From assembly GCA_017429525.1 (NCBI GenBank), contig JAFROT010000032.1:38841-102840 (forward strand): a stretch of 64,000 bases of DNA, written 5' to 3'. Below, one piece after another: positions 5,110 through 50,394 of this stretch. Numbering within the stretch: the first letter of the stretch is position 1; each line of letters starts with the position of its first letter. The stretch is from Bacteroidaceae bacterium (GTDB taxonomy: Bacteria > Bacteroidota > Bacteroidia > Bacteroidales > Bacteroidaceae). Both the position numbers and the translations under genes were made by a program. The notes under the pieces were generated by a model that searched no databases, was not told the origin of the DNA, and was given only the letters and a program-made list of their open reading frames with translations.

Positions 5110-5598
5110 ATGGGATACATTGAAGACAGCTTGATGAAGGATGAGCATGTCGAATTTGAGGCACAGCTCCATCCTATTGTCTACTGGGCACCTATAGCCA
5201 TTGCCGTGCTCGGATTCGTATGCTTGTTCCTGCCCTTCGATCAGGTTGAGAATCCTTGGCTGCAGGAACATGCCTGGCTCGTTCGCATCCTGCTGATGCT
5301 TGTGCTCTTCGTGACAGCGGTCGTACGTACGATTGAGATCCACGGCGGCAAACGCTATGTCGTCACCAATCGGCGTCTCATCTTCAAGCGAGGCATCATC
5401 CGCCGTCGCAGCCACGAATTGATGTTGCGTCGAGTCGAAGGTGTACAGGTCGATCAGACCATCATGGGCCGCCTGCTCGGTTATGGCTCAGTATCCGTAA
5501 CGACGGGTGAAGTCACCAACACCTACGACTATATCCGTCAGCCTATGCGTTTCAGCGCCATGATCAACCAGATGATTGACAGCATGAACGCGCATTAA
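5110..5598 (+). CDS. Bacterial PH-domain (bPH2/DUF304) membrane protein
   Basis: Small membrane protein of unknown function. Two hydrophobic segments (about residues 24-46 and 55-75) form a hairpin anchor. They are followed by a PH-like domain with the typical pattern YVVTNRRLIFKRGIIRRRSHELMLRRVEGVQV. Members usually occur singly or in pairs in the cytoplasmic membrane with the PH fold facing the cytoplasm. It starts 64 nt after yebC and is followed by a strong terminator, so it may be the last gene of the pheT-yebC transcript. No catalytic residues are recognised. Confidence 0.8.
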   Translation: MGYIEDSLMKDEHVEFEAQLHPIVYWAPIAIAVLGFVCLFLPFDQVENPWLQEHAWLVRILLMLVLFVTAVVRTIEIHGGKRYVVTNRRLIFKRGIIRRRSHELMLRRVEGVQVDQTIMGRLLGYGSVSVTTGEVTNTYDYIRQPMRFSAMINQMIDSMNAH

Positions 5599-5632: not shown

Positions 5633-5661
5633 AAAAGCGCCTCTATTACGGGGCGCTTTTT
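5633..5661 (+). terminator. Rho-independent terminator after PH-domain gene
   Basis: A GC-rich hairpin (AAAGCGCC...GGGGCGCTTT) with a T run, 35 nt downstream of the stop codon. Flanking A and T tracts make it usable in both directions. Confidence 0.85.
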
Positions 5662-5679
5662 CATTGGCTTGCAATCACA

Positions 5680-5987
5680 CGTATATACGCTGGGCATTCA
5701 TCGAATATACGTAAAGGCTTACGCGAATATATGTGAAGGCTCACGCGTATATATGTATAAGCCTTCGCGTATAGTACGCTCAGGCTTGTCTCAATAATGA
5801 TACTCGCGAGTATCACCAATGAGACTTTTGAGTACCAATAATGATACCTCCATAGGTCTCTATTCGATTGGATGTTGTTGACTATTCAACTTTGCCTTGT
5901 TGACTATTCGACGTTGCCTTGTTGACTATTCGACTTAGCTTTGTCTACTAATCGGCTTTGACCTGCCGACGATTCAGATCAACTTTG
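5680..5987. repeat. 22-bp-period intergenic array A (14 units)
   Basis: Fourteen consecutive units begin at 5680 and every 22 bp to 5966, without a single indel. Unit sequence drifts along the array: the first five read like CGAATATACGTAAAGG, the middle ones like ACCAATAATGATAC, the last ones like TTGACTATTCGAC. Column 4 is nearly always A, column 7 mostly A and column 9 mostly T throughout. 22 is not a multiple of three and no convincing gene is present, so it is not a protein repeat. The array reaches into the last codons of the minus-strand GAF gene at 5979 and fills the rest of the gap to the terminator. Arrays B and C share the period and core. Confidence 0.85.
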
Positions 5988-6482
5988 GGCAACGATGAGT
6001 TGCTTTGCAAGGGCTGCCACAATGGCTTCGAGGCCCTGACGATCGGTGTCATCGAAGGCTGCGAGCTGGTCGCTGTCGATGTCGAGAACGCCTATGACAT
6101 GGGCATCTGATGGATGGAGAATAGGCACGACAATCTCTGAGCGAGAGGCTGAACTGCAGGCGATGTGCCCTGGGAACTGGTCGACATCAGGGACAACGAG
6201 CGTTTGAGCTTCAGCCCACGCCGTACCACAGACGCCACGCCCTCGACGTATACGCGTACAAGCAACGGGACCTTGGAAAGGACCAAGATGAAGCCACTCA
6301 GGTTCGGCAACCATGTAGAAGCCTACCCAAAAATAGTTAAAGGCTTCATGAAGGGCTGCGGATGTATTGGCCAAGAGGCTGACAGTGTCGGTCTCGCCAT
6401 CGATGAGCAGGCGGTAGTCCTCGAGGAAGGCTGCATAGCGCTCGCCCTTGCTCATTGCGGGGTATGTGAAAGACTGTTCCAT
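5979..6482 (-). CDS. GAF-domain free methionine-(R)-sulfoxide reductase
   Basis: Reduces free L-methionine-(R)-sulfoxide in the cytoplasm, an oxidative-damage repair reaction (fRMsr, E. coli MsrC/YebR family). It is a single GAF domain of 167 residues. The three active-site cysteines are present at Cys75, Cys85 and Cys109; their spacing (10 and 24) equals that of Cys84/94/118 in the E. coli enzyme. The surrounding motifs GPVACTRI, GRGVCGTAW and GHIACSSASRSEIVVP also match, as does VIGVLDIDSD. It lies downstream of the C69 peptidase gene in the same direction, separated by 136 nt containing a long inverted repeat. The 3' end merges with the 22-bp array. Confidence 0.9.
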   Translation of the reverse strand: MEQSFTYPAMSKGERYAAFLEDYRLLIDGETDTVSLLANTSAALHEAFNYFWVGFYMVAEPEWLHLGPFQGPVACTRIRRGRGVCGTAWAEAQTLVVPDVDQFPGHIACSSASRSEIVVPILHPSDAHVIGVLDIDSDQLAAFDDTDRQGLEAIVAALAKQLIVAQS

Positions 6483-9123: not shown

Positions 9124-9197
9124 TGATTCCGTTGGGATTCGAACCCAAGACCCACAGCTTAGAAGGCTGTTGCTCTATCCAGCTGAGCTACGGAACC
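9124..9197 (-). tRNA. tRNA-Arg (anticodon TCT)
   Basis: A complete 74-nt cloverleaf on the minus strand. The acceptor stem is GGTTCCG with CGGAATC (one G-U pair), the D arm is GCTC/GAGC, the anticodon stem ACAGC/GCTGT encloses CTTCTAA, and the T arm is TTGGG-TTCGAAT-CCCAA. The anticodon TCT decodes AGA. The discriminator base is A and CCA is not encoded. Confidence 0.96.
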
Positions 9198-23307: not shown

Positions 23308-25689
23308 TCACTTGGGTGGGTAGAAGGTCTGGGTGATGAGGGTGCCGCGCCCGTAGGCGTCCTTCTTGCCGTCCTCGAGGATGTAGTAGGGCCAGAGCTG
23401 GATGATGATTTTATTGGGGTCGCTGGTGTAGCAGGTCAGGGTGATGTCGTCGTAGTAGCCGTCGTGGTTGGTGCGTCCGTCGTAGGAGTGGCGGATGGTG
23501 GGTTGCGCGGCGAAGTCCTCGATGCCCCATTGCTTGATGGAGGCGTGGTTGGTGACGTAGACTTTGATGCTGAAGGTGTAGGCGTGGTCGTAGGTAATCT
23601 CGTCCATGATCTGGTTCTCAAAGACTTCGTAGTTGACGAGCTTGATGTCGGCTATCTCCACGCCGGGGAGGATGGTGTTGCACTCGAGGCTGCGGTCGTA
23701 GTACCATCCGGTGAAGTCGGGATTGTTGAATAATTGGCGATAGTAGTCGGAGTTGAAGCGCTGGAGCATGCTGGACTCGAAGTAGACGAGCCTGGCGTTG
23801 TACTCCTCGTTCTGGGGCACGTCCGTGAAGGTGAAGTGGCGGTAGAGCGCGTTGGCGAGGGGCTGGTCGCGCTGGATGAGTCCTTCGTCGGCCACGGCGA
23901 AGTCGACGAACGAGTCGTCGCTCTTCTTGGTGAGTACCATGCAGGGCATGATGCCCTGGTTGTTCCAGAGTGCACTGATGCCTTTCTCGGTGAAGTGTGC
24001 CTCGCCCTTGAGGGTGACCTCGGTGTTGTCGCTGTTCATCTCCTTGTAGACGGCCATGTCCTTGAGCTTGGGCATCCAGGTGAAGCTCTCTTTCTTGGTG
24101 AGCCCTTCGAAGTAGTGGGGCGAGTAGTGGATTTTGCCGGTCTTGGCGTCGTCGGTGTCGCCATCGACAAGCTCGCGCATCCAGTCGGTCATGGCTTTTG
24201 CTTCCTTGAGATAGGCTTTCTGCTCTTCGGGGTCGTCGATGAAGAAGGTGGCGAAGACGGACTGCACGATGGAGGCGTCGTCGGCCAGGTCGTTGAGTAT
24301 GGCGTTGAACGTCCCCTTCATGCTGAAGCCGTAGTTGAAGCTGGCGCCGAGGCCTACTCTTGCGCTGGCCGACACGCCTTCCTGCAGCTCTACGTTTCGT
24401 CGGCCGTTAACGAGCCTGTGGGGCGTGGAGACTGTGCTATGGAGGTCTATGGTGGGGTCTATGGTGAAGCTGTTGGCCTCGTTGAAGAGCCCCACGCCGA
24501 AGTGCAGGGAGAGAGTGACGCCGGGCTCGCCGCTGATGCTGAATCCCATCATCGAGAGGTCCTTCGTCTTGACCTTGGAATTGCTGATGCTCTTACGGAG
24601 GTTGTCGGCGGTGACGGCTGCTCCGAGGAAGGGGACGAGCTGGAAGGCATCGAGGCTCACGTTGATGTCGCTTATATGCTTGAACGAGAGGGCGAAGTCG
24701 CCGGCAAGGGCGAGGCTGGCGGTGATGTCTACGCCGAGGATGATGCGCAGCGAGACGACCTTGATCTTGATCTTGGCCTTGGCGGGGAGGAAATTCTTCT
24801 TCTCCCAGATGCGCAGCTTGCCGGCCAGCGTGCCGGAGGCGTGGATGACGCCCTCGAGGTCGGAATGGTCAACGATCTCGACGCCGTAGGGGATGTCGTT
24901 GTCGGAGAGGATGGCCTTGAAGGTGAGGCGGTGGTCCCAGAAGGATTCGTCGTTGCTGACCGACACGTCGCCAGAGCCTACGATGGTGTATTTGCCATTG
25001 GAGTAGCCCTCGTCGTCCCTGGAGACGGCGGAGCCGTTTTTGATGGTGATGTTCTTGTCGAGAGGTATGCGGAAGTGGAAGGTGCCGCCCTCGTCGTCGG
25101 GAGTGATGCTGAAGTCCTGGAGGTCTTCGACTTGGTCCATGCCCTCAGAGGATGCTCGCGTGGCGGCGGGCTGGAGGTCCACTTGGTCGGCGAGCACGGC
25201 GCCCAGGTCGCCCTCGAAGTCGAGCTTCTTGAAGATCTCGCCCAGGTTGGCGGCTACGGTGGCTGCGCGTATGACGCCGTCGACGGGGGCAATGGCCAGC
25301 ACGTGGTTGCCTATGCCGTCGGGGAAGTGGGGCCCGTCGACGCAGGTGATGATCTCGCCTTTCTTGGGCAGGAGGTCCTTGGGCGTGGCGAGGTCGAAGT
25401 CGACGACGGCGATGTAGCCCGTGGAGTCGATGTAGACCTGGCGGACGTACTGCTGAATGTCGTCGGTGAGCACGCGGACGTTGCTCTGGTACTGGTAGGT
25501 GACGGAGTAGCCTACGCCTCCATCGCGCACGGGCTCATCGTAGCCTTCGCCGGTGTGCACGGGCACGTCCTTGTCCTCGAAGTCGTCGTAGTAGTCGGTG
25601 AAGAAGGTGCACGAGGCCATCGAGGCCACGACGCAGAGGGCGGCTGCGCAGCGTGCCAGGAGAGGGTAGATTCTTGAGGGCTGTAGCAT
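23308..25689 (-). CDS. Large lipoprotein, last gene of giant-protein operon
   Basis: Function not recognised. The protein begins with a lipoprotein signal (lipobox ASMASC, Cys27) and has 793 residues. After an acidic Tyr/Asp segment come mostly beta-rich stretches: an N-terminal half (about 45-330) that includes VSYTYQYQ-like strands, then a region (about 330-560) with FSLKHISDINVSLDAFQLV and GLGASFNYGFSMKGTFNAI resembling beta-solenoid or barrel-like repeats, and a C-terminal part with FN3-like strands. The start at 25689 is chosen because the longer upstream frame is low-complexity shadow overlapping the preceding gene and lacks a signal peptide. Likely anchored in the outer membrane and working with the other four products. 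GC content is visibly high. Confidence 0.75.
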   Translation of the reverse strand: MLQPSRIYPLLARCAAALCVVASMASCTFFTDYYDDFEDKDVPVHTGEGYDEPVRDGGVGYSVTYQYQSNVRVLTDDIQQYVRQVYIDSTGYIAVVDFDLATPKDLLPKKGEIITCVDGPHFPDGIGNHVLAIAPVDGVIRAATVAANLGEIFKKLDFEGDLGAVLADQVDLQPAATRASSEGMDQVEDLQDFSITPDDEGGTFHFRIPLDKNITIKNGSAVSRDDEGYSNGKYTIVGSGDVSVSNDESFWDHRLTFKAILSDNDIPYGVEIVDHSDLEGVIHASGTLAGKLRIWEKKNFLPAKAKIKIKVVSLRIILGVDITASLALAGDFALSFKHISDINVSLDAFQLVPFLGAAVTADNLRKSISNSKVKTKDLSMMGFSISGEPGVTLSLHFGVGLFNEANSFTIDPTIDLHSTVSTPHRLVNGRRNVELQEGVSASARVGLGASFNYGFSMKGTFNAILNDLADDASIVQSVFATFFIDDPEEQKAYLKEAKAMTDWMRELVDGDTDDAKTGKIHYSPHYFEGLTKKESFTWMPKLKDMAVYKEMNSDNTEVTLKGEAHFTEKGISALWNNQGIMPCMVLTKKSDDSFVDFAVADEGLIQRDQPLANALYRHFTFTDVPQNEEYNARLVYFESSMLQRFNSDYYRQLFNNPDFTGWYYDRSLECNTILPGVEIADIKLVNYEVFENQIMDEITYDHAYTFSIKVYVTNHASIKQWGIEDFAAQPTIRHSYDGRTNHDGYYDDITLTCYTSDPNKIIIQLWPYYILEDGKKDAYGRGTLITQTFYPPK

Positions 25690-25729
25690 AGTGGCTGTAG
25701 GGGGGATTGAGGGGTTCTGAGATGGGGCC

Positions 25730-26431
25730 TTATTCTGCGGGCATGAAGTGCAGGGGGTAGAGGGCGGAGAGCGTGCCGTGGGCTTCGCCGTCGAGCACGA
25801 AGTCGCCGGGCAGGCGGACCATGGTAGCCCGCGAGGCGTCGTAGAGGCGCAGCGTGACGTGCTCGCCATAGGAGTAGGGGCTCCAGATTCGTAGGGCGAA
25901 ATAGCGTATGCCCTGTGCCACGTGGGGCTCGGCCACGCCGCGCAGCTGGTCGTCGATGAAGGCTCCGACGAAGATGTTGTCGGGCACACTGGCGCCACGG
26001 AGGGTGATGTCGGCGTAGATGACGGTGTCATACAGATAGTCGGTCTGACGGATGTACCACCTCGGCCACACGTTGACCAGGCAGGAGTCCTCGAGCTGCG
26101 AGGAGACGGTGATGGCGGTGACCATGGCCGAGCCTTCGCCGACGGCGATGAGCGTGTCGGCCCTCAGCTCTACGACCTCGCGGTCGTCGGACATCCAGAA
26201 GATGCTGGCGTTGGAGGTGGAGTCGGGGGCTACGTGGCGAGGTATGACGTAGCGGTCGCCTACCATGAGGTCTACGACGTGCTGGTCGAGCTCCATCGTC
26301 GACGAGGGGATGGCGTCGAGCTGGAACTCGAACATGTCGCCACACGATGTCAGCGCGGCAACGGCGAGGGCTGCCGCGAGGAGGGCAAGCCAGCGCGGGT
26401 GGCGGGTCCCGAGTATGGTGGTGTGAGTCAT
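25730..26431 (-). CDS. Lipoprotein with bacterial Ig-like (Big_2-type) domain
   Basis: A 233-residue protein with a clear lipobox (ALTSC, Cys30). Residues about 40-120 show the Big_2-like pattern: MVGDRYVIPRHVAPDSTS, then ASIFWMSDDREVVELRAD and AVGEGSAMVTAITVSS. The C-terminal part (about 125-233) is beta-rich and contains NIFVGAFIDDQLRGVAEPH, which is similar to the AFxxxECRG domain found twice in the 770-residue surface protein of this window. No catalytic motif. The next gene begins 40 nt downstream. Probably a surface-exposed accessory of the giant protein. Confidence 0.78.
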   Translation of the reverse strand: MTHTTILGTRHPRWLALLAAALAVAALTSCGDMFEFQLDAIPSSTMELDQHVVDLMVGDRYVIPRHVAPDSTSNASIFWMSDDREVVELRADTLIAVGEGSAMVTAITVSSQLEDSCLVNVWPRWYIRQTDYLYDTVIYADITLRGASVPDNIFVGAFIDDQLRGVAEPHVAQGIRYFALRIWSPYSYGEHVTLRLYDASRATMVRLPGDFVLDGEAHGTLSALYPLHFMPAE

Positions 26432-26456
26432 AGCTGTATGAGGAGTGGGGTGGGGG

Positions 26457-28625
26457 TTATTTATGCTTGATGGTGACGATGTCGGAGTGGTGGCTGCGGC
26501 GGCCGTCGTCGAACTGGATGAAGACGTAGTACTGCGCCTGCTGCCCCTTGCCGAGGCTGCGGTCTGCGAAGACGACGTCGTCCTTCGGGCGCGAGAGCAG
26601 GAAGCGGAAGTCGTCGTCGGCCTCGCTCTTGCGGTAGATGACGTAGTAGTAGTCGCTGCAGTCCTCGGGGATGGAGCCGATGTCCCAGGTGAGGCGTGCC
26701 TCGTCGCGGTCGCGCACGTACTCGCCCATCAGCTTGACGGGGATGTCGAGGATGCGCGGTCCCTGGAAGAGGAAGCTCTTCTGGAAGCTGAGCCCCGACG
26801 AGCAGCCGAGCACGTCGAGGGTCTCGACGGCGTAGTAGTAGCGCCGCTTCTGATCATAGGGCGGACGGTCCTCGACAGTGAACTTGTGGTCGGTCAGCTG
26901 GTCGGCATCGACGACGGCCAGGAGCGTCCAGCGCTGCTCGCCCTCGAGGCGGCGATAGACACGGTGCCACTTGACATCGGCCTCAGCCGAGCCAATCCAC
27001 GTGATGCGGATCACCTGGTCGTCGGAGTAGACGGAGTCGGGGCGGCAGGGCGTAGGGGGCTCGAAGTTGGGCACGGGCACACCGATGGGTGCCGAGAGGG
27101 CCGAGGCGTTGCCGCTGTAGTCGGTGGCCTTGATGCAATAGTAGATGTAGCGCTGGTTGGCGTCGACCGAGATGGTGTCGTGGAAGATGGTGTCGCGCAG
27201 CCCGCGGTCGGAGATGCGTATGAAGTCGTGGTTCAAGGCGTTGGCCTTCCATATCTCATACTCCATCACGTCCTCGTCGGGCGATGGGCTCCAGAGCAGC
27301 GTCACCTCGCCCGAGGGCAGGCTGGCGCCACGCAGGTTCAGGGGAATCTGCGGCGGCGTGATGTCGCTGATGCGCAGGGTCTGGGGCAGCGAAGCGCTGA
27401 CGTTCCCGTTGCTGTCGTAGGCCACGATGGCGATGCTGCCGGTCTGCAGGCCCGTGACGTTGACGGTGCAGGCGGTGTCAGTCGGGGCGAGCATGTGGTT
27501 GCGCAGGGGCAGCCACTGCCCGTAGAGCAGGTTGGCGTTGTAGTACATCGGCAGGTAGCCTACGAAGTCGTCCTCGAGGGTATCCTTGTGCCAGATGAGT
27601 CGCGCCGTCGTCATCGTGTCGGTGCGCTCCAGGATGATCTGATGCAGAATGGGCGGCGAAGGCGGCACCATCTCCTTGAGCTCGACGCGATGGGCCTGGG
27701 TGGGCGCCGTGAGCTGCCCGAAGGGGTCTACGGCCCGCAGGCGATACTCGTAGACGCCAGGCTCGAGGTTGTCGTCGAGGTACTTGTTGGGCTGCTCGCC
27801 GATGACGTCCTCGCTGGTCACCTCCATGGGCACGTAGGGGTGCTCGTTGATGCGCCGCCACTCGCCCTGCTCGTTGTCGCGACGCTCGATGTGGAAGACG
27901 GCGAAGCGGTCCTTGGGCCACGTCAGGATGATGCCCTTGGGCGGCACGATGGAGTCGGCTATCTCGGTGTGATAGGGGGTAGCGTCGGCAGGCTCGTTGA
28001 CGACGTCCATGACCAGTCCGTCCCACACGGGCAGGATGCTGTCGGGCACCTGCGGCTTGATGAGGTAGTCGTAGCGTGCGCCGCGGACGGCCGTGCGGTC
28101 GACAAAGCGCAAGCCCATGGCCTCGGCCAGGTCGGGACGCAGCTCAGCGGCTAGCATGGCAAAGCCGAACATGTTCTGCTGCTCGTCGTAGACTTCCATC
28201 ACCGACCCTGCGCTGCCTGGCGCGCTCTGCGTCTGGTCGAGCCCCGTGCCCTTGTTGAAGATGAGCTCCACGGCTATGGCTGCCATCGAGTCGGTCTCGG
28301 CAAAGCGGCTCATGAACTCGCGGCGGGGCAGGGGATGGATGTCGGTGGCGAGGGTGTCCTCGCGGAACTCCACGCCCTTCTGCACGCGGGTGATGGTGTA
28401 ACCATAGCCGTTGAGGTACTTCCACGGCACATACTCCTCGGGAGCCCAGCGGATGACGATGCTGTCGCCGAAGGCACGCGCCAGGGCGTGAATCTGGAAC
28501 TTGTGGCGGGCGATGGTGTCGGCATCAGCCGTACCGGAGGCCGAGGCTGCAGGCTGGGCTACGGCCAGACTCAGCGTGCAGACCTGTGCGGCAAGGAGGG
28601 CGATATATCGGAATGTCTTCTTCAT
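26457..28625 (-). CDS. Secreted fibronectin type III repeat protein
   Basis: 722 residues with a signal peptide (about 1-23, cleavage after AVA or AQ). Residues 40-220 form an N-terminal beta-rich domain. About five fibronectin type III-like domains follow, near 228-318, 323-420, 424-520, 525-620 and 627-720; each has a Trp-containing strand (ITLTW/RLIWHK/VTLLWSP/RITWIG/RLTWD) and a YxYxxxAxDxxG-type strand (YYCIKATDYSGN). There is no catalytic motif and no obvious sorting tail. The start codon lies 6 nt after the giant gene, indicating tight coupling. Such proteins accompany TANFOR-type giants in other Bacteroidetes (established pattern, recalled, not searched). Likely a periplasmic or surface adaptor. 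Confidence 0.82.
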   Translation of the reverse strand: MKKTFRYIALLAAQVCTLSLAVAQPAASASGTADADTIARHKFQIHALARAFGDSIVIRWAPEEYVPWKYLNGYGYTITRVQKGVEFREDTLATDIHPLPRREFMSRFAETDSMAAIAVELIFNKGTGLDQTQSAPGSAGSVMEVYDEQQNMFGFAMLAAELRPDLAEAMGLRFVDRTAVRGARYDYLIKPQVPDSILPVWDGLVMDVVNEPADATPYHTEIADSIVPPKGIILTWPKDRFAVFHIERRDNEQGEWRRINEHPYVPMEVTSEDVIGEQPNKYLDDNLEPGVYEYRLRAVDPFGQLTAPTQAHRVELKEMVPPSPPILHQIILERTDTMTTARLIWHKDTLEDDFVGYLPMYYNANLLYGQWLPLRNHMLAPTDTACTVNVTGLQTGSIAIVAYDSNGNVSASLPQTLRISDITPPQIPLNLRGASLPSGEVTLLWSPSPDEDVMEYEIWKANALNHDFIRISDRGLRDTIFHDTISVDANQRYIYYCIKATDYSGNASALSAPIGVPVPNFEPPTPCRPDSVYSDDQVIRITWIGSAEADVKWHRVYRRLEGEQRWTLLAVVDADQLTDHKFTVEDRPPYDQKRRYYYAVETLDVLGCSSGLSFQKSFLFQGPRILDIPVKLMGEYVRDRDEARLTWDIGSIPEDCSDYYYVIYRKSEADDDFRFLLSRPKDDVVFADRSLGKGQQAQYYVFIQFDDGRRSHHSDIVTIKHK

Positions 28626-28631
28626 AGTCGA

Positions 28632-31600
28632 TTAATAGTTGTAATAGCTGTCGGAATAGTAGTTGTTGCTGTCGTCGAACTTAGGCGTCACCTGGTACTC
28701 GATCAGGTTCTTACTGCTGTTGTAGACGTCGAGCGCCTTCGAGGCGGGATGGCCCTCGGTGTGGTAGGCGTCCTGGCGGAAGAAGTAGTAGTTGAACGAC
28801 CTGACGTTGTCGGTCAGCTGCTTCAGCGTCGGGGTGGCGTTGACGCTCTCCATGACGGCCTTGGCGCAGTCGGCGGTGAAGCGCCATTGCGGCAGCGAGA
28901 CGGGCCATGAGAACTGCTGCGAAGGCAGGGCGCTCGACGGCTTGGACGACTTGTAGGTACCATCCATCAAGTACCATCCTGGTTGCATGTAGTGGAGGGC
29001 GAGCAGCGGTATCTGATAGTAGGGCACCGAGAACGAGAAGTTCCAACGCCGTGAGAGGTCAACGCCTGAGATATGGTCGGCGTTGCTGTTGAACGAGATG
29101 ACGGAGTTGGCATAGGTACTGCTCCAACTCTTGGCATTCGCGATGGCCGTGAATCTCTTGCTCGGGTTGTTGGCTCCCGTGTAGGAGAGGAAGTCGTTGA
29201 ACACCTTCTGCAGGCGAGGATAGAATGCCTTGACGATGAAGTTGGCGTCCTGGCCATACAGGTACTCAACAGGCCACAGCGTACCCCTGCTGAAGCCCGA
29301 GACGAACTTGAAGCCCGGCTCGTACTGCTCGTACATCGAAGGCTTGATCTCGTTGCTGAATTTCGTTATCTCGCTGCCCGTAGAGACGGTAGGCGAGGTG
29401 GCTGTCCACTCGTAATGGCTTCGTATTGCTGCAGGAGCATACTCGTCGTTGCTTCGGAGGCCTGTCACGTCGAAGTTGACGTCGAGGCCCTTGTAGATGT
29501 AAGGCGCATTCGACTTGTTGCAGAAGCCGTAGCCCACGCCTGAATAGCCGTCGACGAACGCCCACGTGGCCCAGTAACCCAGGTTGAGATAGGGGTCTTT
29601 CAGGTAGCTCTTGCCGCTGACGATGCTCTGGGAGAGCGAGGGGAGCGACTGCTTGTAGGAGATGTTCTTGAGGATGGACAGCGGGGCGGTGGTTTTCTTC
29701 ATGTTCTTGAACTCCTGCTGCAAGCCGTACCAGCTGTCGAGGTACCAGCCCCAGGTGGTGTTGTAGCCATAGGAGTAGGTACCCATGGTGAGCTTAGGCC
29801 GTCCGCTCTCGCTGATTTCCTTTTGCGCCTGCTGGCGGAAGCTGTCGTTGTTGGGGTCGATGCGGAACAGGATCTCGAAGGCCGTCTCGGTGAAGTCGTC
29901 GAAGGCGAGCTGCTGGGCGAACTCACGCACACGGATGGAGGTGGTGTCACCCTTCAGTTCGTTGTTCAGCGCCTCGTAGTAGTCGTTGAGATACTTGTCG
30001 ACATCCACGGCAGGTTCAGCCGAGGGCTGGTCGGGGGCGGCGTCGGTGCCGTCCGTCACCACTGCCGTAACAGTGGTGTTCTCGGGGTTCTGTGCCTGTG
30101 AGACGGTGTTCTTGTACTTCTCGATGAAGTCGTCGCAGAACGAGTTGAGTCCGTCGAAGTTGATGTAGTTGAGCTGGAAGCGGTAGTACTTCTTCGGGTC
30201 GAGGTTATCGAAGCTCTTGACGGTGCGCATGAAGATGTAATCGGTACCCTTGGGTTGGATGGTCTCGAGTTCCATGTTCTGATAGTCGGACTTCGATGGG
30301 TCGCTTGAGTAGGTCCAATGGGGTGGCACGTAGTCGGCGCTGGCGGGAATGGCCTGCTGCTCGGGAATGTCGGTGAAGGAGTCGATGCGCGCAGTGACCC
30401 AGTTGAAGCCGTCGCAGTAGATGCAGTAGTCGCCGACGTTGCCTACGCCCTTACCAAAGTGGATCTCGGGCATTTTACTCACGGATTCGCTGATCTTGGC
30501 CGTCATCAGGTCCTCCTTGGAGCCGATAACGGGTTGCCCTGCGGTGGCGTCGCCGCCCTGGGTGACAGTGATGCTGGGGTTCTTGCTGATTGCTACTAAC
30601 GTCGCCAAGTTCATCTCTTCGACCTCGTCGTTGTAGGTGGAGAGCCTGGTCCTACTGCCAGCGCTTGCCACGCGTAGATCGTCAGCAGCAGTCGTAGTCG
30701 TTGTGGACGATTCGACTACAGGCGTGCGGGTAACTGTCCCGCCCGTGAGACCTGAAACGCCTCTCACGCCTGTGGATAGCGTATCGGTAGCGACCCGGAG
30801 ACGGCTTGCCGATGTGGTAGCTGTCGTCGTGCCCAGCGTAGTACGTCGCGCGGCTGTCGCCACCGTGTCGGGCGCATAATAGTGCTCCATCTCAGGCGAC
30901 GGACCGCCTCTCAGTGAGGTCATCCTCAGCGTAGTTTCTGCTTGCTGCATGACGGCATTGGTCTTGACGGAAGCGTCAACTTTGACATTCTCGATGATGG
31001 TGGCATCGATGGGATTGCCTGCCGTGATGATGTTGGTGTTGGAGCCCGTGACGATTGTTCCCTTTGAACCCGTCAGCCCGAAGTCGTCGGTGCCGTGGAC
31101 GAAGACGTTCGAGGGATTGGTGGTCGTGCCCGTGTTGGTGAACTCGTAGCCGCCACCAGTGTCAAGGACGCCCAGCGGGTCGCCCTTCGAACCGGCCTTC
31201 GCGTCAATAGCATCCGATAACGTTCCGGCACTGATTTCGCCCTTGTCAATCGTCTCATGGATTCTATCTTTCCAAGTGTCGTCAAACACCTGTTGTTCTA
31301 GCCCATGCAGGCCGTTGCCGCAAGGTTCGCCCCTCTCGATGATGGTCATATTGGGAATATGCTGTGCGGGTTGGTACGGCCTGCCGGGGTCGCCCTGCTC
31401 TTCCACCTTATAGTAGGTGACGTCAACAGGCAGCCAGGCACGTGCCTGCTCGTCGTAGTACTGCAGTCGTCCCATCAGCTTGCGCGACGGGTTCACGGTC
31501 TCTTCCTCATGGCTGTGGCGCATCGCCATCGTCGGCTGCTTGGCATCCTCCTTGTAGTCGAGGTAGAGCACAGCAATGTCGTCGCCGATGGAGGGCAGCT

Positions 31601-34600
31601 TGTTGTCGGTGCGGAAGTAGACAATCATCGAGTCGCGCCATGCGCGGTGCTCGTCCTTGTGGTCGGAGAGCGAGTCGTTGAAGATGGGATCTACCTCGCG
31701 TCCATCGCGGATCTCTTTGCAGTAGCCCGAGAGCGTCATGCGGTAGAGCTTGTTGCGCTTCAGCTGGGTATTCAGCAGGTAGGACGAGCGGTCCTTGGTC
31801 CAGTAAGTGACCATCTCTGTCGTGTCGGGCATCGCGTTCTCGTTCTTCTCCTTCGAGACGTCGTAGATATCGAGCATCATCTGCGGGTCGAGGTGGAAGA
31901 CATAGGTGCGGGAGGCCTGCTCGTTGTAGATGCTGATGTCCTCGTCCCAGCCAGCGTGCTCGTAGGCCACGTTCTTGTCGACCAGTCGGATGTGCTTGTC
32001 AATGTCCATCGAGGTGGTGAAGCGTGGCTCGGTGTTCATGCCGTAGGCGCGCTTCTCGTTCCAGCTTTCCTCGCGGTCCTCGGTTCCTGGCTGGGCATCG
32101 TCGAAGAGCTTGATGTCGTCGAGCGGGTTTCCGAACTCGGGTACACAGACTTCGCCTGCCTTGAGTTCTACGCTATGATTGAACTTGACGAGACCACCGA
32201 GCAGCTTGCAATGGGCCTTGACTTTGCCATAGACCCATGTCGGGTTGGGCATACCGCCCTTGAGTAAGGCGCCGAGGCCGACGTCGATAAGCGGCACCTT
32301 GCCTTTCCATATCCAGAGGTTGATGTCGAGACCTACTTCACCCTTGAACAGCGCGTAGACCTGACCTGTTCCGTACCAGCCGTTCTTACCAGCCTCGCGA
32401 CCACCGATGCAGGTGGTGCCCTCCTTCAGCTTCTTGATCATCAGGTCGAAACCGAGGATGAGCGTAGCACGGGCATAGACAAGGCCGGCATTGATGCCGA
32501 AGTCGCCATAGGCCTTGGCACCGAACATGAAGCCACCGTTGTTGCCTGGACCTCCACCGAAGCCGCTGAACGTCTTGACGACATTCTGGCGTTCGCTCTC
32601 AGCCTCGGCACCCAGGGCTTGCGGTTTTCCGCTGATGTCCGTACCGCCCAGATACTCCTGTATCTCGGAGGGGATAGGCGGCAGCTCGTCGCACGGCAGT
32701 TCGTTGCCGAAACAGAGGTAGGCGTCGGCATAGACCGTAGCCCACATGGCAAAACTGTCGCTGCGCTTGCCCAGTGCGAAGTCGATGAACGTGATCTTGC
32801 ATCGCTTGTCCTCATCAGGCTGACCGATGTAGAGGTGCCACTTGGGGTCGTCCAGCTTCTGGCCATCTTTCTTCCACGTCACGCGCAGGTTGATATTAAT
32901 GTAGACGCCTGCACTGAGATGGGCCTTGGCCTCTTCTTCCTTTTCCTTCGCGCTCTCGGCACCTTCGCTGGAATTGGAGTTCTTGTTCTCGTCGTCGTCC
33001 TGAACGCCCATTTCGCCCAGTCCGGCTTCGCTGGCCGACTTCAGCACGTCTTCGGCCAAACCCGTGAACTGAGCGAGTTCTTCGGTCATATCGGCCTTGG
33101 CATCAACCGTGATATCGGCATCGAAGTAATGATCTTTGTCGTCGTCCTTATAGAGTATCGTTACGTTGGCATTGATTAGGCCCTTGTCCGACTTGCCGCA
33201 GATGGCATGAAAATCGGCCTTGATGCGAAGGGTGGACAGGCGGTCCTTGTACATATCGTAGAAGACGTACAAGTCGCCGCTGGCATTCATCGCCTTCTCC
33301 TGCCCGATGACGAGTCCGATGTCGAACATGCCGCCCACCATACCGTAGGAGGGCTTAGCCGTTTCCTTGCCGATGGTGCTCCCGAGGTCTTTGTAGCAGT
33401 TGAAGTAGAATCCTCCCCCTACGCGCTTCACCTTGACGGGGTCGACGCCAACGCCTTGCCCCAGGTCGACGGTAATCTCGAGGAACGCCCACGTGTAGGT
33501 CTCGTCGGGGTTGAACTGCGAATTGGCCTGAAGCTCCGCCACCTCGTCCATCTTGCCTTGCTCGGTGAGGCTCTGAATGCGTTCGTCCAGACTTGCCTGC
33601 CATTTACGCTGCTCGTCGGCGAGCACATCGGCGGGTTTCGTAGCCTCGGAGTACGCGCCAGCGGCATGGAAGGCGAACAGGTCTCCTGGCATCTTCATAT
33701 CCAGTTCTGCTCGGAAACCTTTCGCCTCACGATTACCCGATTCGTCTTGGCCGTAGTCGATCTCCAGCGTGCCAGAGATGTCGATGCCGCCAAGTCCCTT
33801 GCTCTTGATGTGCGCCTCCTTGAATTCGAGGCCACGATAGTTCACCTCCTTCTTGTCCCAGTCGGCCTCTGCCCAGACGGTAGCCGTGGTACCTCCGGAG
33901 AGCTTGCCGTTGAGCATACTGATGTCGCCGCCTATCCTGAGTCCGATCTGCGAGCCCGATTCGTCGATGCCGAAGTCGGAGAGGGTGAAGAGGAATCCTC
34001 CAATCTTCTTTTGCGGAGAGGCGAAGGACCATCGTCCGAGGTCGAAGTGGATTTTGCCGTCGCTGCTGACCAGTTCTTTCTCCATCGTGTAGAAGGTCTT
34101 GCCGTCTTCCTTGCCACTCTTGCCGGCCTGATCCTTCCACTTCTTGTATTGCGCCGCCTGCTTAGCGTCGACCTTGGATTGCCATCGCTCGCAGTTGGCC
34201 AGTCGCATGTTGGCAAAGGCCACTCCTGGGATCTTCAGCCCAATCTTGGATGTCTTGGCATTGACCTCTGAGGTGAAGCTGCTGTTGATTTCAATCTCGC
34301 CGCCGAGGCATAGCTCTACGCGCGTCTCTTCGTCCTCCTCGGCTTCAACGAGGAAGTAGGTCTGATCCTTGTCGAAGGTGGCTTTTGCCAGCCAGAAGTC
34401 GAGGCTCATGTCGTCCTGCTCGGACGTCTTGAACAGCCACACGCGATGGCGGTCGGCCTCAGCGCCTTGATCCTGCAAGCTCAGCTCAGCCTGATACTTG
34501 ATGTGTGCCTCTTCATGCTTGCCGTCTTGGTTCTTCTTCGTGGACTTCAGCATTGGCACCGTGAACTGCCCCTCGAAGCCGGCGCGGTCGAACGTGCTCT

Positions 34601-41982: not shown

Positions 41983-42176
41983 AGGCTTGAAAATTAAATG
42001 GTTATCAAATAGAGAATTAATGAATATATGTTACGAATGACTAATAAAAAACCGCAAAATCTTAATTTCTGTTGCAAATAAAGTAATTTTCCACCACATA
42101 TAATGACATTTAGTTACTCAATTTACAGTTAAAAAAACTAAAATAGTCATTTCTCTATTTTAATTTCCATAAAGAT
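41983..42176. other. AT-rich gap, no gene seen
   Basis: Upstream of the 770-residue protein gene and before array B. AT-rich, without open reading frames or clean promoter boxes. A one-mismatch -7 candidate on the minus strand (TTTATTTG) lies near 42075-42082. Confidence 0.6.
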
Positions 42177-42418
42177 GACAAATCAACTTGATTTTTTCGA
42201 CTATTCAACTTTACTCAGTTGACTATTCGACTTGCAATAGTTGATTATTCGACTTGATTCAGTTGACTATTCATCTTGCAATAGTTGACTATTCGACTTG
42301 CAATAGTTGATTATTCGACTTGATTCTGTTGACTATTCAACTTGCAATAGTTGACTATTCGACTTGATTCTGTTGACTATTCAACTTGAAGCAGTTGATT
42401 ATTCGAATCAGGAATGTA
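42177..42418. repeat. 22-bp-period intergenic array B (11 units)
   Basis: Units start at 42199 and every 22 bp to 42397, with a degenerate unit at 42177. The core GACTATTCGACTTG is nearly constant. Two tail types alternate, CAATAG and ATTC(A/T)G, giving a partial 44-bp super-period. In CAATAG units, ACTATT pairs with AATAGT, so single units can form hairpins. It ends 12 nt from the stop codon of the minus-strand lytic transglycosylase gene. It matches the last units of array A. Confidence 0.9.
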
Positions 42419-42430
42419 AAAAGAAAAAAT

Positions 42431-43723
42431 TTATTTGCCCCAAAAGGCAGAGTCGGTCATGAACTCTTCGCGAGAACGAATACGTGAAGAGGAGGACTTG
42501 CCTTTTGAAGAACTTCCTATAGAGGGTGCCAGTGAACTATGGTGCGCTGGAGCTGAACCGCGATAAGAGGCCCATCGAGATTGAATCTGACGAACGTAGC
42601 CTGAAGTCTCGCTGCCTCGCAGATAGCCGAACTTGACAACGGGATCACGGTAATACTGAGGCTGCGAGAGGCGAAGAATGAAGGGATCGACGTCGGCCCA
42701 TCGCTGAGGATTGCGGCCATTCTTGCGAGCAAGGGACATCGCATCACGGACATGCCCCGTTCCGCCGTTGTATGCAGCCAGCACAAAGTTGATGCGCTCG
42801 GAGCGGTTTGGAATGTCAGAAAACACTTCGCTGAGATGACGCAGATAACGGCAGGCAGCTTCAATATTGAGCTCAGGGTCAAAGACATCTGAACGCGTGA
42901 GGCCCAGTCGTGAGGCCGTTCCAGGCATGATCTGCATCAGTCCCTGAGCACCGGCCCACGAAATGGCTCTTGGGTCGAAAGCCGATTCCTGATAGCATTG
43001 AGCAGCGATGAGTCGCCAATCCCAACCTACGATGGCAGAATGACGAATGAAGAGGGCATCGTAGTTGCTGATCACGCCCTTCTGGCGCGAGAGCATGGGC
43101 GGCCGAGAGGGTCGGGTAGAGGTCTTGCGCGGACGTGTACGCATCTGCTCAAGAGCTTGGAACTGGGCACGGGTGTCATCCGTCCACCACGCCGCGGCGG
43201 ACTCTGCCAAAGCGGGCGAACTGCTACGCACGAGCCACTCTTTGTGGATGCTGACGAACTTATGCCGACTGTTGCCGCCTGATAATGAATCAGCGGGCAA
43301 GGGATAAGCTATCATATCGGCCTCACCAACTGAAAGCTTGCGCAGCAGTTCAGCAGTATCATTGGCTATCTCCATGCGCAGGCGTGCACCAATGGAGCGC
43401 GCATAGGCTTCGGCAATCGAGAATTGAAGACCAAACCCTTGGCCACGATACTCGTAATAAGTGTCTGGACCCGAAAGGGTAACAGCGATTAGCTCACCGG
43501 CCACTTGAATGTCGGCCAAGTCATAGTCATCGAGTTCCGTGACATCACCACCTTGGCCAAACATGACGGAGGGCATCTCTTTCTTTTCGCCCTTACATGC
43601 ACTAAGGACGAGCATGACAAAAAACAAAAGAGTGACAAGTGAACGCCGATGGCCTCCTCCAAGACGTTTCACAGGTCCTAAAGGAAAAACAAATGATTCA
43701 CTTATCACTCTTTCGCTGCTCAC
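42431..43723 (-). CDS. MltF-like lytic transglycosylase lipoprotein
   Basis: Membrane-anchored murein hydrolase with the MltF layout. The N-terminal region ends in a lipobox (MLVLSAC, Cys near 43). A solute-binding (SBP_bac_3-like) regulatory domain (about 70-185) includes VGEADMIAYPL. The SLT domain (about 225-340) has IAAQCYQESAFDP, whose Glu is the catalytic acid, then GAQGLMQIMPGTA and FVLAAYNGGTGH. The C-terminus is Ser/Arg/Lys-rich and ends in DSAFWGK. The N-terminal extension before the hydrophobic segment is longer than usual, so translation might start later, but no better start is evident. It begins 11 nt after udk. Confidence 0.9.
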   Translation of the reverse strand: MSSERVISESFVFPLGPVKRLGGGHRRSLVTLLFFVMLVLSACKGEKKEMPSVMFGQGGDVTELDDYDLADIQVAGELIAVTLSGPDTYYEYRGQGFGLQFSIAEAYARSIGARLRMEIANDTAELLRKLSVGEADMIAYPLPADSLSGGNSRHKFVSIHKEWLVRSSSPALAESAAAWWTDDTRAQFQALEQMRTRPRKTSTRPSRPPMLSRQKGVISNYDALFIRHSAIVGWDWRLIAAQCYQESAFDPRAISWAGAQGLMQIMPGTASRLGLTRSDVFDPELNIEAACRYLRHLSEVFSDIPNRSERINFVLAAYNGGTGHVRDAMSLARKNGRNPQRWADVDPFILRLSQPQYYRDPVVKFGYLRGSETSGYVRQIQSRWASYRGSAPAHHSSLAPSIGSSSKGKSSSSRIRSREEFMTDSAFWGK

Positions 43724-49577: not shown

Positions 49578-50085
49578 AGTGATTTCATCTTTCCATCCTA
49601 TTGTCAGCGGTCCATTCTTGTTTCCCCTACCCTATTTTTGTCCAAATTATTGATCAGGACAACCACGAAGGAGTCACAAAAAAGTACTGATAGCTTGGAC
49701 AAAGATACCCATGAAAAATGCCAAAAAAGCATCTATAATCTACTAGAAAAAACGTCAAAAAGCGCTCTAAGCAGCATAAAAGACATTCAAAAAGTATCAA
49801 TAGTAGACTAAATCATCATAAAACGCCCGATTATTAATCAAAATACACCTTTATTCAGCCATTTTTCACCCTATCTCTGCCATTTAATTTGCATTTTTCA
49901 CTTCATCATCCACATAATAATCAATAATATAAACCACTTTTAGTGAAAAATGAGAAATAAAACATCTCATGCGCGTGCGCGAGAAAGTATTCACGAATGC
50001 GAACTCCATTTCCGACCCACATACTCCTTCTCATCACTGCCCACAACTGCTTAGGCCTACCCACCTGCCCGACCACTACGTCAAC
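49578..50085. other. AT-rich gap before array C
   Basis: About 500 nt without a supported gene. Short A-runs recur (for example CAAAAAG), but no regular period was established. The stretch turns GC-rich after about 50000, where array C begins. Confidence 0.5.
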
Positions 50086-50394
50086 ACGATCACTTGCCCC
50101 CGTCAACACAACCATCCATCTCCGCCAACACGACCATTCGTCCTTACTCACTTAACCGGCTGTAAACTCAAACATATCCAGATAAAACCTCCGATACACG
50201 AAGTCAAAACAGGTGGACCACCAAGGTGATCCACCTTACACGATCATTCGCATCGCCTCCCGCGACTATTCGCAGCGACCGACACGACCGTTCGTATAGC
50301 CCTTCGCGACCGCTCGTATCGCCCCGATCGACCGTTCGCCTCCACGCGTACGACGCTCAGACTCACGCCAACACGACGCACATCACCAATTATC
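50086..50394. repeat. 22-bp-period intergenic array C (about 14 units, partly decayed)
   Basis: Cores of the type CGACCATTCG occur at 50087, 50109, 50131, then at 50241, 50263, 50285, 50307, 50329 and 50351. Every interval is a multiple of 22, including 110 bp (five units) across the decayed centre. It runs up to the stop codon of the 85-residue minus-strand gene at 50383. Compared with arrays A and B it is GC-rich. The open frames across it are composition artefacts. Confidence 0.75.

Follow-up and report, generated by a model that had tools for sequence, protein, structure and literature searches.

The interval between two convergent genes of this Bacteroidaceae genome raises the question of why tandem units of differing sequence keep to a single step of 22 bp. 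The window, here the whole stretch of 64,000 nucleotides that was analysed, belongs to a draft genome (G000; 3.3 Mb, 56 contigs, 86% complete); the tandem array in question, array A (5680..5979, no strand assigned), consists of ~13.6 units of 22 bp in three unit types, with a z score of 12.95 at lag 22. The upstream gene on the plus strand (5110..5598) encodes a bacterial PH domain protein (bPH_2; gene prediction and domain match), and the convergent neighbor on the minus strand (5979..6482) encodes a GAF-domain protein whose best match, 98% identical, comes from the MAG RUG14845 of an uncultured Bacteroidales bacterium. The array adjoins the stop codon of the GAF gene, as stated in the earlier note, which had placed it immediately 3' of this gene; the regular core stops at ~5979, the last base of the GAF gene, and the final bases of the range that had been extended to 5987 are GAF coding sequence. 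A terminator-like hairpin is present, as had also been noted, yet it sits on the side of the plus-strand gene, opposite the GAF side: the G+C-rich hairpin, flanked by an A run and a T run (5633..5661, no strand assigned), was noted directly in the sequence, recurs in the orthologous locus L049, was not reported by the hairpin scan, and may be a bidirectional terminator that separates the plus-strand gene from array A. Elsewhere in the window, G+C climbs to ~0.6 across roughly 10 kb (24000-34000), where the skew shifts.

The 22-bp periodicity of array A is real. Between 5671 and 5990, identity at lag 22 reaches 0.587, compared to a dinucleotide-shuffle mean of 0.256 (sd 0.025, maximum 0.336, 2000 shuffles), and lags 44 and 66 are likewise raised (z 8.6 and 4.5); the independent method TRF delimits period-22 blocks at 5702-5778, 5792-5844, and 5875-5960. 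The step that had been read from 5680 onward, and the comparison with shuffled sequence that had been suggested as its check, are therefore borne out for array A. The unit types, none with a strand assignment, are type 1 (5680..5789; units CGWATATACG... with AGGCTT), type 2 (5790..5855; palindromic units with the perfect 18-bp palindrome TGATACTCGCGAGTATCA), and type 3 (5856..5979; units TTGACTATTCGAC...). Adjacent units are 0.45-0.91 identical within a type, with identity dropping to 0.32 and 0.27 where one type gives way to the next. Type 2 is related to neither of the others, which agrees with the earlier impression that the types hardly resemble each other; types 1 and 3, however, are alike when one of them is inverted (identity 0.43, null 0.37, p 0.018). 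The strict register that had been claimed throughout 5680-5966 holds inside the blocks and is inexact across the type 1 junction; phase across unrelated unit types can be judged only by symmetry axes.

Array A has counterparts in the window and in the rest of the genome. Array B (42176..42404, no strand assigned) comprises ~10.5 units of 22 bp in the sequence family of type 3, and directly adjoins the 3' side of a minus-strand gene (42431-43672) that resembles lytic transglycosylases, with NCBIfam matches below cut-off; compared with the close relative G296, its sole match was the G296 copy of array A. Array C1 (50069..50167, no strand assigned) is a weak 22-bp array in which the axis scan found no axis, and array C2 (50222..50375, no strand assigned) has ~6 units of the CGACCGTTCG... 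family, with 8 bp between it and the 3' end of a gene predicted on the minus strand. The arrays at 42176-42404 and 50069-50375 were each observed directly 3' of predicted minus-strand genes. Across the genome, the pattern TATTC-N17-TATTC has 53 matches, compared to 6 for the reversed control. In a 438-kb sample made up of the window and 20 stretches set over matches to this or a similar pattern, the strict threshold of 0.6 yields 29 places at lag 22; lags 17, 19, 20, 23, 25, 29, and 31 yield 0-1, and lags 16, 21, 26, 28, and 32 yield 2 to 5. The 29 arrays fall into nine similarity components, so that several sequence families of the same length coexist in one genome; sequence similarity links 19 of them, in part a selection artefact, since TATTC matches determined where the stretches were placed. 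On contigs C2, C5, C8, C33, and C42, another unit family, GAACCTATGTTC, was seen, mostly in steps of 22, 44, and 66 bp and in both orientations; its core recurs in an array (L168) of the congeneric genome G078.

A sample of 60 stretches (1.07 Mb) from Bacteroidaceae genomes, five of them placed over pattern hits, contains 28 lag-22 places in 21 stretches; eight of these come from the five pattern-placed stretches and 20 from the other 55, or ~1 per 49 kb. If this density applies to the genome of the window, it should hold several dozen arrays. Lag 44 yields 16 places, lag 21 13, lag 14 nine, and lag 28 eight; the remaining lags not divisible by three yield at most five, and lags 16, 17, 19, 20, 23, 25, 26, 29, 31, and 32 yield 0-2 each. 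Array sequences vary between genomes and, mostly, between loci. Among the 57 arrays measured, the core is under four units in 20; constant-size bacterial tandem repeats have at least four repeats per array, as does array A with its ~13.6 units. Beyond the family, 614 kb of the same class, sampled as 40 stretches from other families, contain three lag-22 places, one a simple GGGTTT-like repeat, one AT-rich, and just one clearly array-like, and 100 kb of E. coli K-12 contain no lag-22 array place. The lag spectra of the genome and of the family rule out a neutral minisatellite of arbitrary period; the 22-bp arrays form a genome- and family-wide class of fixed geometry that is not limited to array A. 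Arrays of 23 bp with a palindromic core GGTAGCTACC were noticed in two uncultured Bacteroides (L063 3503-3620 and L070 3523-3640).

The arrays are not distributed evenly with respect to genes, as called by a simple home-made codon-usage caller. With six edge intervals left out, and with overlapping arrays merged (as also in the modal-axis analysis below), convergent intervals account for 21 of 46 array-bearing intervals and for 40 of 268 array-free ones (p 8e-6); divergent intervals show a deficit (4/46 vs. 65/268, p 0.02), and of the 21 arrays in tandem intervals 15 are closer to the 3' end. None of the 28 family arrays falls mainly inside a predicted gene. A coding repeat was rejected, since 22 is not divisible by three and no predicted genes cover the arrays.

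Two-fold symmetry is a second property of the class. In 31 arrays of the genome, perfect inverted repeats with arms of at least 6 number 50, compared to 14.2 ± 4.9 in column-permuted arrays that keep the period; 46 of the 50 have even loops, with ~10 of the 50 in one AT-rich place that was dropped later (two AT-rich places, L132 18519 and L135 10166, were dropped from later analyses). Array-level dyads are significant at 0.05 in 12 of these 31 arrays; array A, examined as two halves, shows no significant dyad in either (p 0.19 and 0.13). A best axis located between bases is seen in 26 of 27 own arrays, 19 of 27 family arrays, and 8 of 11 further arrays, compared to 141 of 300 random stretches. 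Over all axes, 138 of 144 lie between bases in own arrays; axes on a base are not rare in family arrays (52/162), which counts against the lattice proposed here. In array A, the axes of type 2 (5795.5, 5806.5, 5817.5, and 5839.5) and of type 3 (5883.5, 5894.5, and 5938.5) share one lattice modulo 11. Seven of the eight axes in 5786-5990 occupy one residue modulo 11, equalled by one of 500 permuted controls, and seven of the 12 axes in 5660-5990 do so, equalled by none of 500. Types 2 and 3 are in phase; the axes of type 1 lie 1-2 bp off their lattice, a point against it, and type 1 taken alone is not significant (2/4 axes on one residue). Modal-axis sums extend the pattern to the class, with 101 vs. 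40.6 ± 5.9 in 27 own arrays and 86 vs. 38.0 ± 4.8 in 27 family arrays; the lattice is individually significant (p < 0.05) in 25 of these 54 arrays, and the 29 in which it is not likewise count against it. Where arm pairing and axis parity were compared, in arrays with a core of at least 66 bp, arm-pairing cells in three sets number 707 vs. 687 ± 7, 574 vs. 549 ± 8, and 304 vs. 288 ± 6 after shuffling (~3 sd each); in each of the three sets the extra pair types exceed the mean of the shuffles without passing their maximum, another point on the negative side. As a caveat, a palindrome copied in tandem yields an 11-bp lattice without any protein; the common lattice across the unrelated types of array A is not explained by such copying.

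Comparison with the close ortholog L049, in which the 22-bp register is also present, as the earlier note would have it, qualifies this picture in both directions. The flanking 100-bp bins align at 74-100% identity, and array A is 45 bp longer; the difference is confined to the stretch from the inner part of type 1 to where the middle type starts, with equal lengths on either side. Array length thus varies between close relatives, a possibility that had been raised, yet by two units plus one base and not by whole units; since 45 is not divisible by 22, the phase between blocks is not kept strictly. This difference counts against the lattice and weakens the argument from whole-unit change. The axes of L049 strengthen the lattice: nine of 18, drawn from types 1, 2, and 3, occupy one residue modulo 11 (a count without a null distribution), and the length shift brings type 1 onto the lattice there, whereas it is off the lattice in the window. 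Within the genus, 46 of 61 genomes have a GAF match; of 30 loci read, matched by gene irrespective of synteny, four have an array in the 3' flank of the GAF gene (the window's own, G296, G274, and G110), one (G287) has an array on the gene's other side, and 25 have none.

Symmetry of this kind could reside in DNA or in RNA, and the earlier note had considered a repeating RNA unit. The arrays could be transcribed as 3'-UTR RNA, in which the self-complementary units would form hairpins in tandem and, for transcripts of either direction, confer stability or bring about termination. With the GAF stop codon on one side and the possible bidirectional terminator on the other, array A may be part of the GAF mRNA; the 3' and convergent position of the arrays in general, and the transcription of 52-nt repeats in Bacillus coagulans according to the available parts of two reports (PMC8625621; PMC8161180), would fit such a role. 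Both strands of array A fold far better than shuffles (z -6.7 and -5.6), as palindromes necessarily do, and the folding of arrays in general surpasses that of column-permuted arrays, with a mean z of about -2 for own and about -3 for family arrays. Dyad mismatches on the presumed transcribed strand, however, lack a clear excess of G-T over A-C: 64 vs. 60 in tandem-context arrays, and 44 vs. 53 in convergent arrays. A looser count on the locus plus strand of 11 further arrays gives 67 G-T vs. 28 A-C, and the stricter strand-based measure gives 25 vs. 27; several of these arrays are G+T-rich. An RNA wobble signature was rejected on these counts, and the symmetry looks to be at the DNA level. Hairpin loops do not require that own axes lie between bases (138/144), nor do hairpins need a fixed 22-nt pitch or a lattice across types, and a search of the whole window against Rfam at the gathering score found a tRNA at 9124-9197 alone, with no RNA-family match in the arrays. 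The RNA reading is thereby weakened; although rather improbable, it is a serious rival of the DNA lattice.

To the observed pitch, symmetry, lattice, position, and distribution, the reading that is tentatively preferred here, although still doubtful, adds a putative protein, a presumed dimeric state, and a possible role: the arrays may be DNA lattices for dimeric DNA-binding proteins. Each 22-bp unit would be the footprint of one dimer, or several paralogous proteins might each serve one unit type; it counts against the reading that the sequences of the arrays within one genome are so different that a single sequence-specific protein could hardly serve them all. Dimers would pack end to end along the array DNA, with one two-fold axis at the centre of each dimer and another at each contact between dimers, giving an 11-bp lattice in a 22-bp repeat; pitch and symmetry would be kept by the needs of the assembly, and the letters would drift with the preference of the protein. 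Since the arrays are located between convergent genes, they may act at transcript ends, perhaps in insulating neighbors, handling supercoils, or organising the nucleoid. The same spacing and symmetry might instead be functionless by-products of a replication, repair, or recombination process in Bacteroidaceae that duplicates DNA at palindromic 3' ends 22 bp at a time. Locus-specific array sequences, the greatest likeness between neighbouring units, the rapid 45-bp length change between close relatives, and the 25 of 30 genus GAF loci that lack an array, with one more in which the array flanks the gene on the opposite side, are consistent with such a mutational origin; the preference for convergent and avoidance of divergent intervals, the single lattice shared by unrelated types 2 and 3 in array A, and arm pairing above shuffled levels argue against it. 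No enzyme is known to have such a 22-bp ruler. This origin is regarded as rather improbable, and yet, like the RNA reading, as a serious rival of the lattice. The earlier note had suggested, from a period conserved over sequence, that spacing is under selection; the spacing is indeed kept, at this locus and across the family, and selection may be the cause, but mutation that copies in 22-bp steps would mimic much of the data.

Mobile elements offer two further readings, both involving palindromic or tandem extragenic units. REP or BIME elements mobilised by a REP-associated tyrosine transposase (RAYT) are palindromic, extragenic, and biased to convergent and downstream sites according to the available text of PMC3733652, as are the arrays, and a RAYT-like gene with several paralogues in the genome lies 40 bp from one array (L130 9959-11080); its product reaches 40.7 bits with the RAYT model (cut-off 80) and 21.1 bits with Pfam Y1_Tnp (cut-off 23), both sub-threshold. 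This HUH/Y1-like protein of 373 aa has a long C-terminal part, and its own-genome paralogues are divergent. Near RAYT-like genes, seven arrays occur in 109 kb where 2.8 are expected (p 0.03), a count that includes the array that prompted the test and one homologous pair. The RAYT model matches nine of 19 array-bearing genomes and five of 17 sampled array-free genomes; it is distant from these proteins and may miss some, and G180, where an array was found by pattern alone, has no match to it. With 10 of 19 array-bearing genomes unmatched, a RAYT seems dispensable within the reach of the model, and RAYT dependence was set aside despite the weak neighbourhood enrichment. REP tags were rejected as well, as GTAG and CGTC, counted irrespective of their place at the unit end, occur as often as in the column-permuted null; a strict 22-bp tandem pitch is no REP feature in the descriptions available from PMC3733652, and a REP-like origin is very unlikely. 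Still less likely is a MITE with an internal minisatellite, akin to BrickBuilt of Porphyromonas gingivalis, which in the available account (PMC4596501) shares the order Bacteroidales, the intergenic location, and tandem units of similar length and variable number; the same paper mentions 22-nt tandem repeats described previously in strain W83. BrickBuilt differs in its 23-nt unit, its single sequence family, and its leader and tail with IS5-type terminal repeats (PMC4596501, available parts). The arrays have neither a single-family 23-nt unit nor a leader and tail with terminal inverted repeats: no common leader, tail, or terminal repeat appeared among 57 flanks, each up to 250 bp long, from 29 own arrays; of the 10 cross hits, seven join arrays that overlap or are neighbours, one is a copied gene end (149 bp), and two are short (21 and 15 bp). 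The MITE was rejected for this lack of common flanks. A gene end together with its 22-bp array was seen in two copies (L130 9580-9919 and L133 9567-9890); the gene in L133 has a weak, sub-threshold Toprim match, and in L130 just the gene end is visible.

Returning to the preferred reading of a protein-bound lattice, its widest form would see in Bacteroidaceae dozens of dihedral DNA lattices, with a 22-bp pitch and an axis per 11 bp, at convergent gene ends, on which a previously undescribed family of dimeric proteins polymerises by pitch and symmetry and not by fixed sequence; this would be a new nucleoid or transcript-end structure and the reason for constant-size satellites, and is more speculative than the lattice itself, if perhaps not out of reach. 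The same 22-bp spacing over many sites and relatives points to a physical ruler and not to a common sequence. If such a protein were found, it would define a chromosome-organising or insulating system with many sites, which sequence-motif searches would miss, since geometry is common to the sites and the letters are not. Protein-bound direct repeats at about two helical turns are familiar from plasmid iterons and centromere arrays; in contrast to these, the arrays described here occupy many loci per chromosome, and array A neighbors genes for PH and GAF domain proteins. The source paper on constant-size repeats (J Bacteriol 2020) reportedly names 22/44 and 52 nt in its abstract. In comparison with REP and BIME elements, the arrays lack GTAG/CGTC enrichment, keep a strict tandem pitch, and occur in genomes without a RAYT match.

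The closest likeness is to the constant-size repeats of Subirana and Messeguer (PMC8161180), which the available parts of that paper describe as short arrays of one length in many unrelated sequence families; the arrays here have one length over unrelated sequences, are non-coding, and form several families per genome. The bacterial repeats described there vary in sequence but are constant in size, at 20-21 or 52 nt, with 20-23 nt in many groups; proteins polymerising on DNA, or small RNAs, are proposed for them; section 4.1 states that the persistence of repeats of the same size and unrelated sequence is unexplained (PMC8161180, available parts). The main text of this paper contains no word starting with "palindrom" or "bacteroid", and the available parts of the papers cited here make no mention of a dyad lattice, a missing wobble signature, or a convergent bias for such repeats. 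By these three features, unexplained constant-size repeats become testable in a common, culturable gut family. Since constant-size, variable-sequence repeats are described in PMC8161180, their kind is already known; the arrays analysed here differ from the available descriptions in their 22-bp length in Bacteroidaceae, their axis per 11 bp, and their bias to convergent gene ends, and what they add is the dyad lattice and the density of such arrays in this family.
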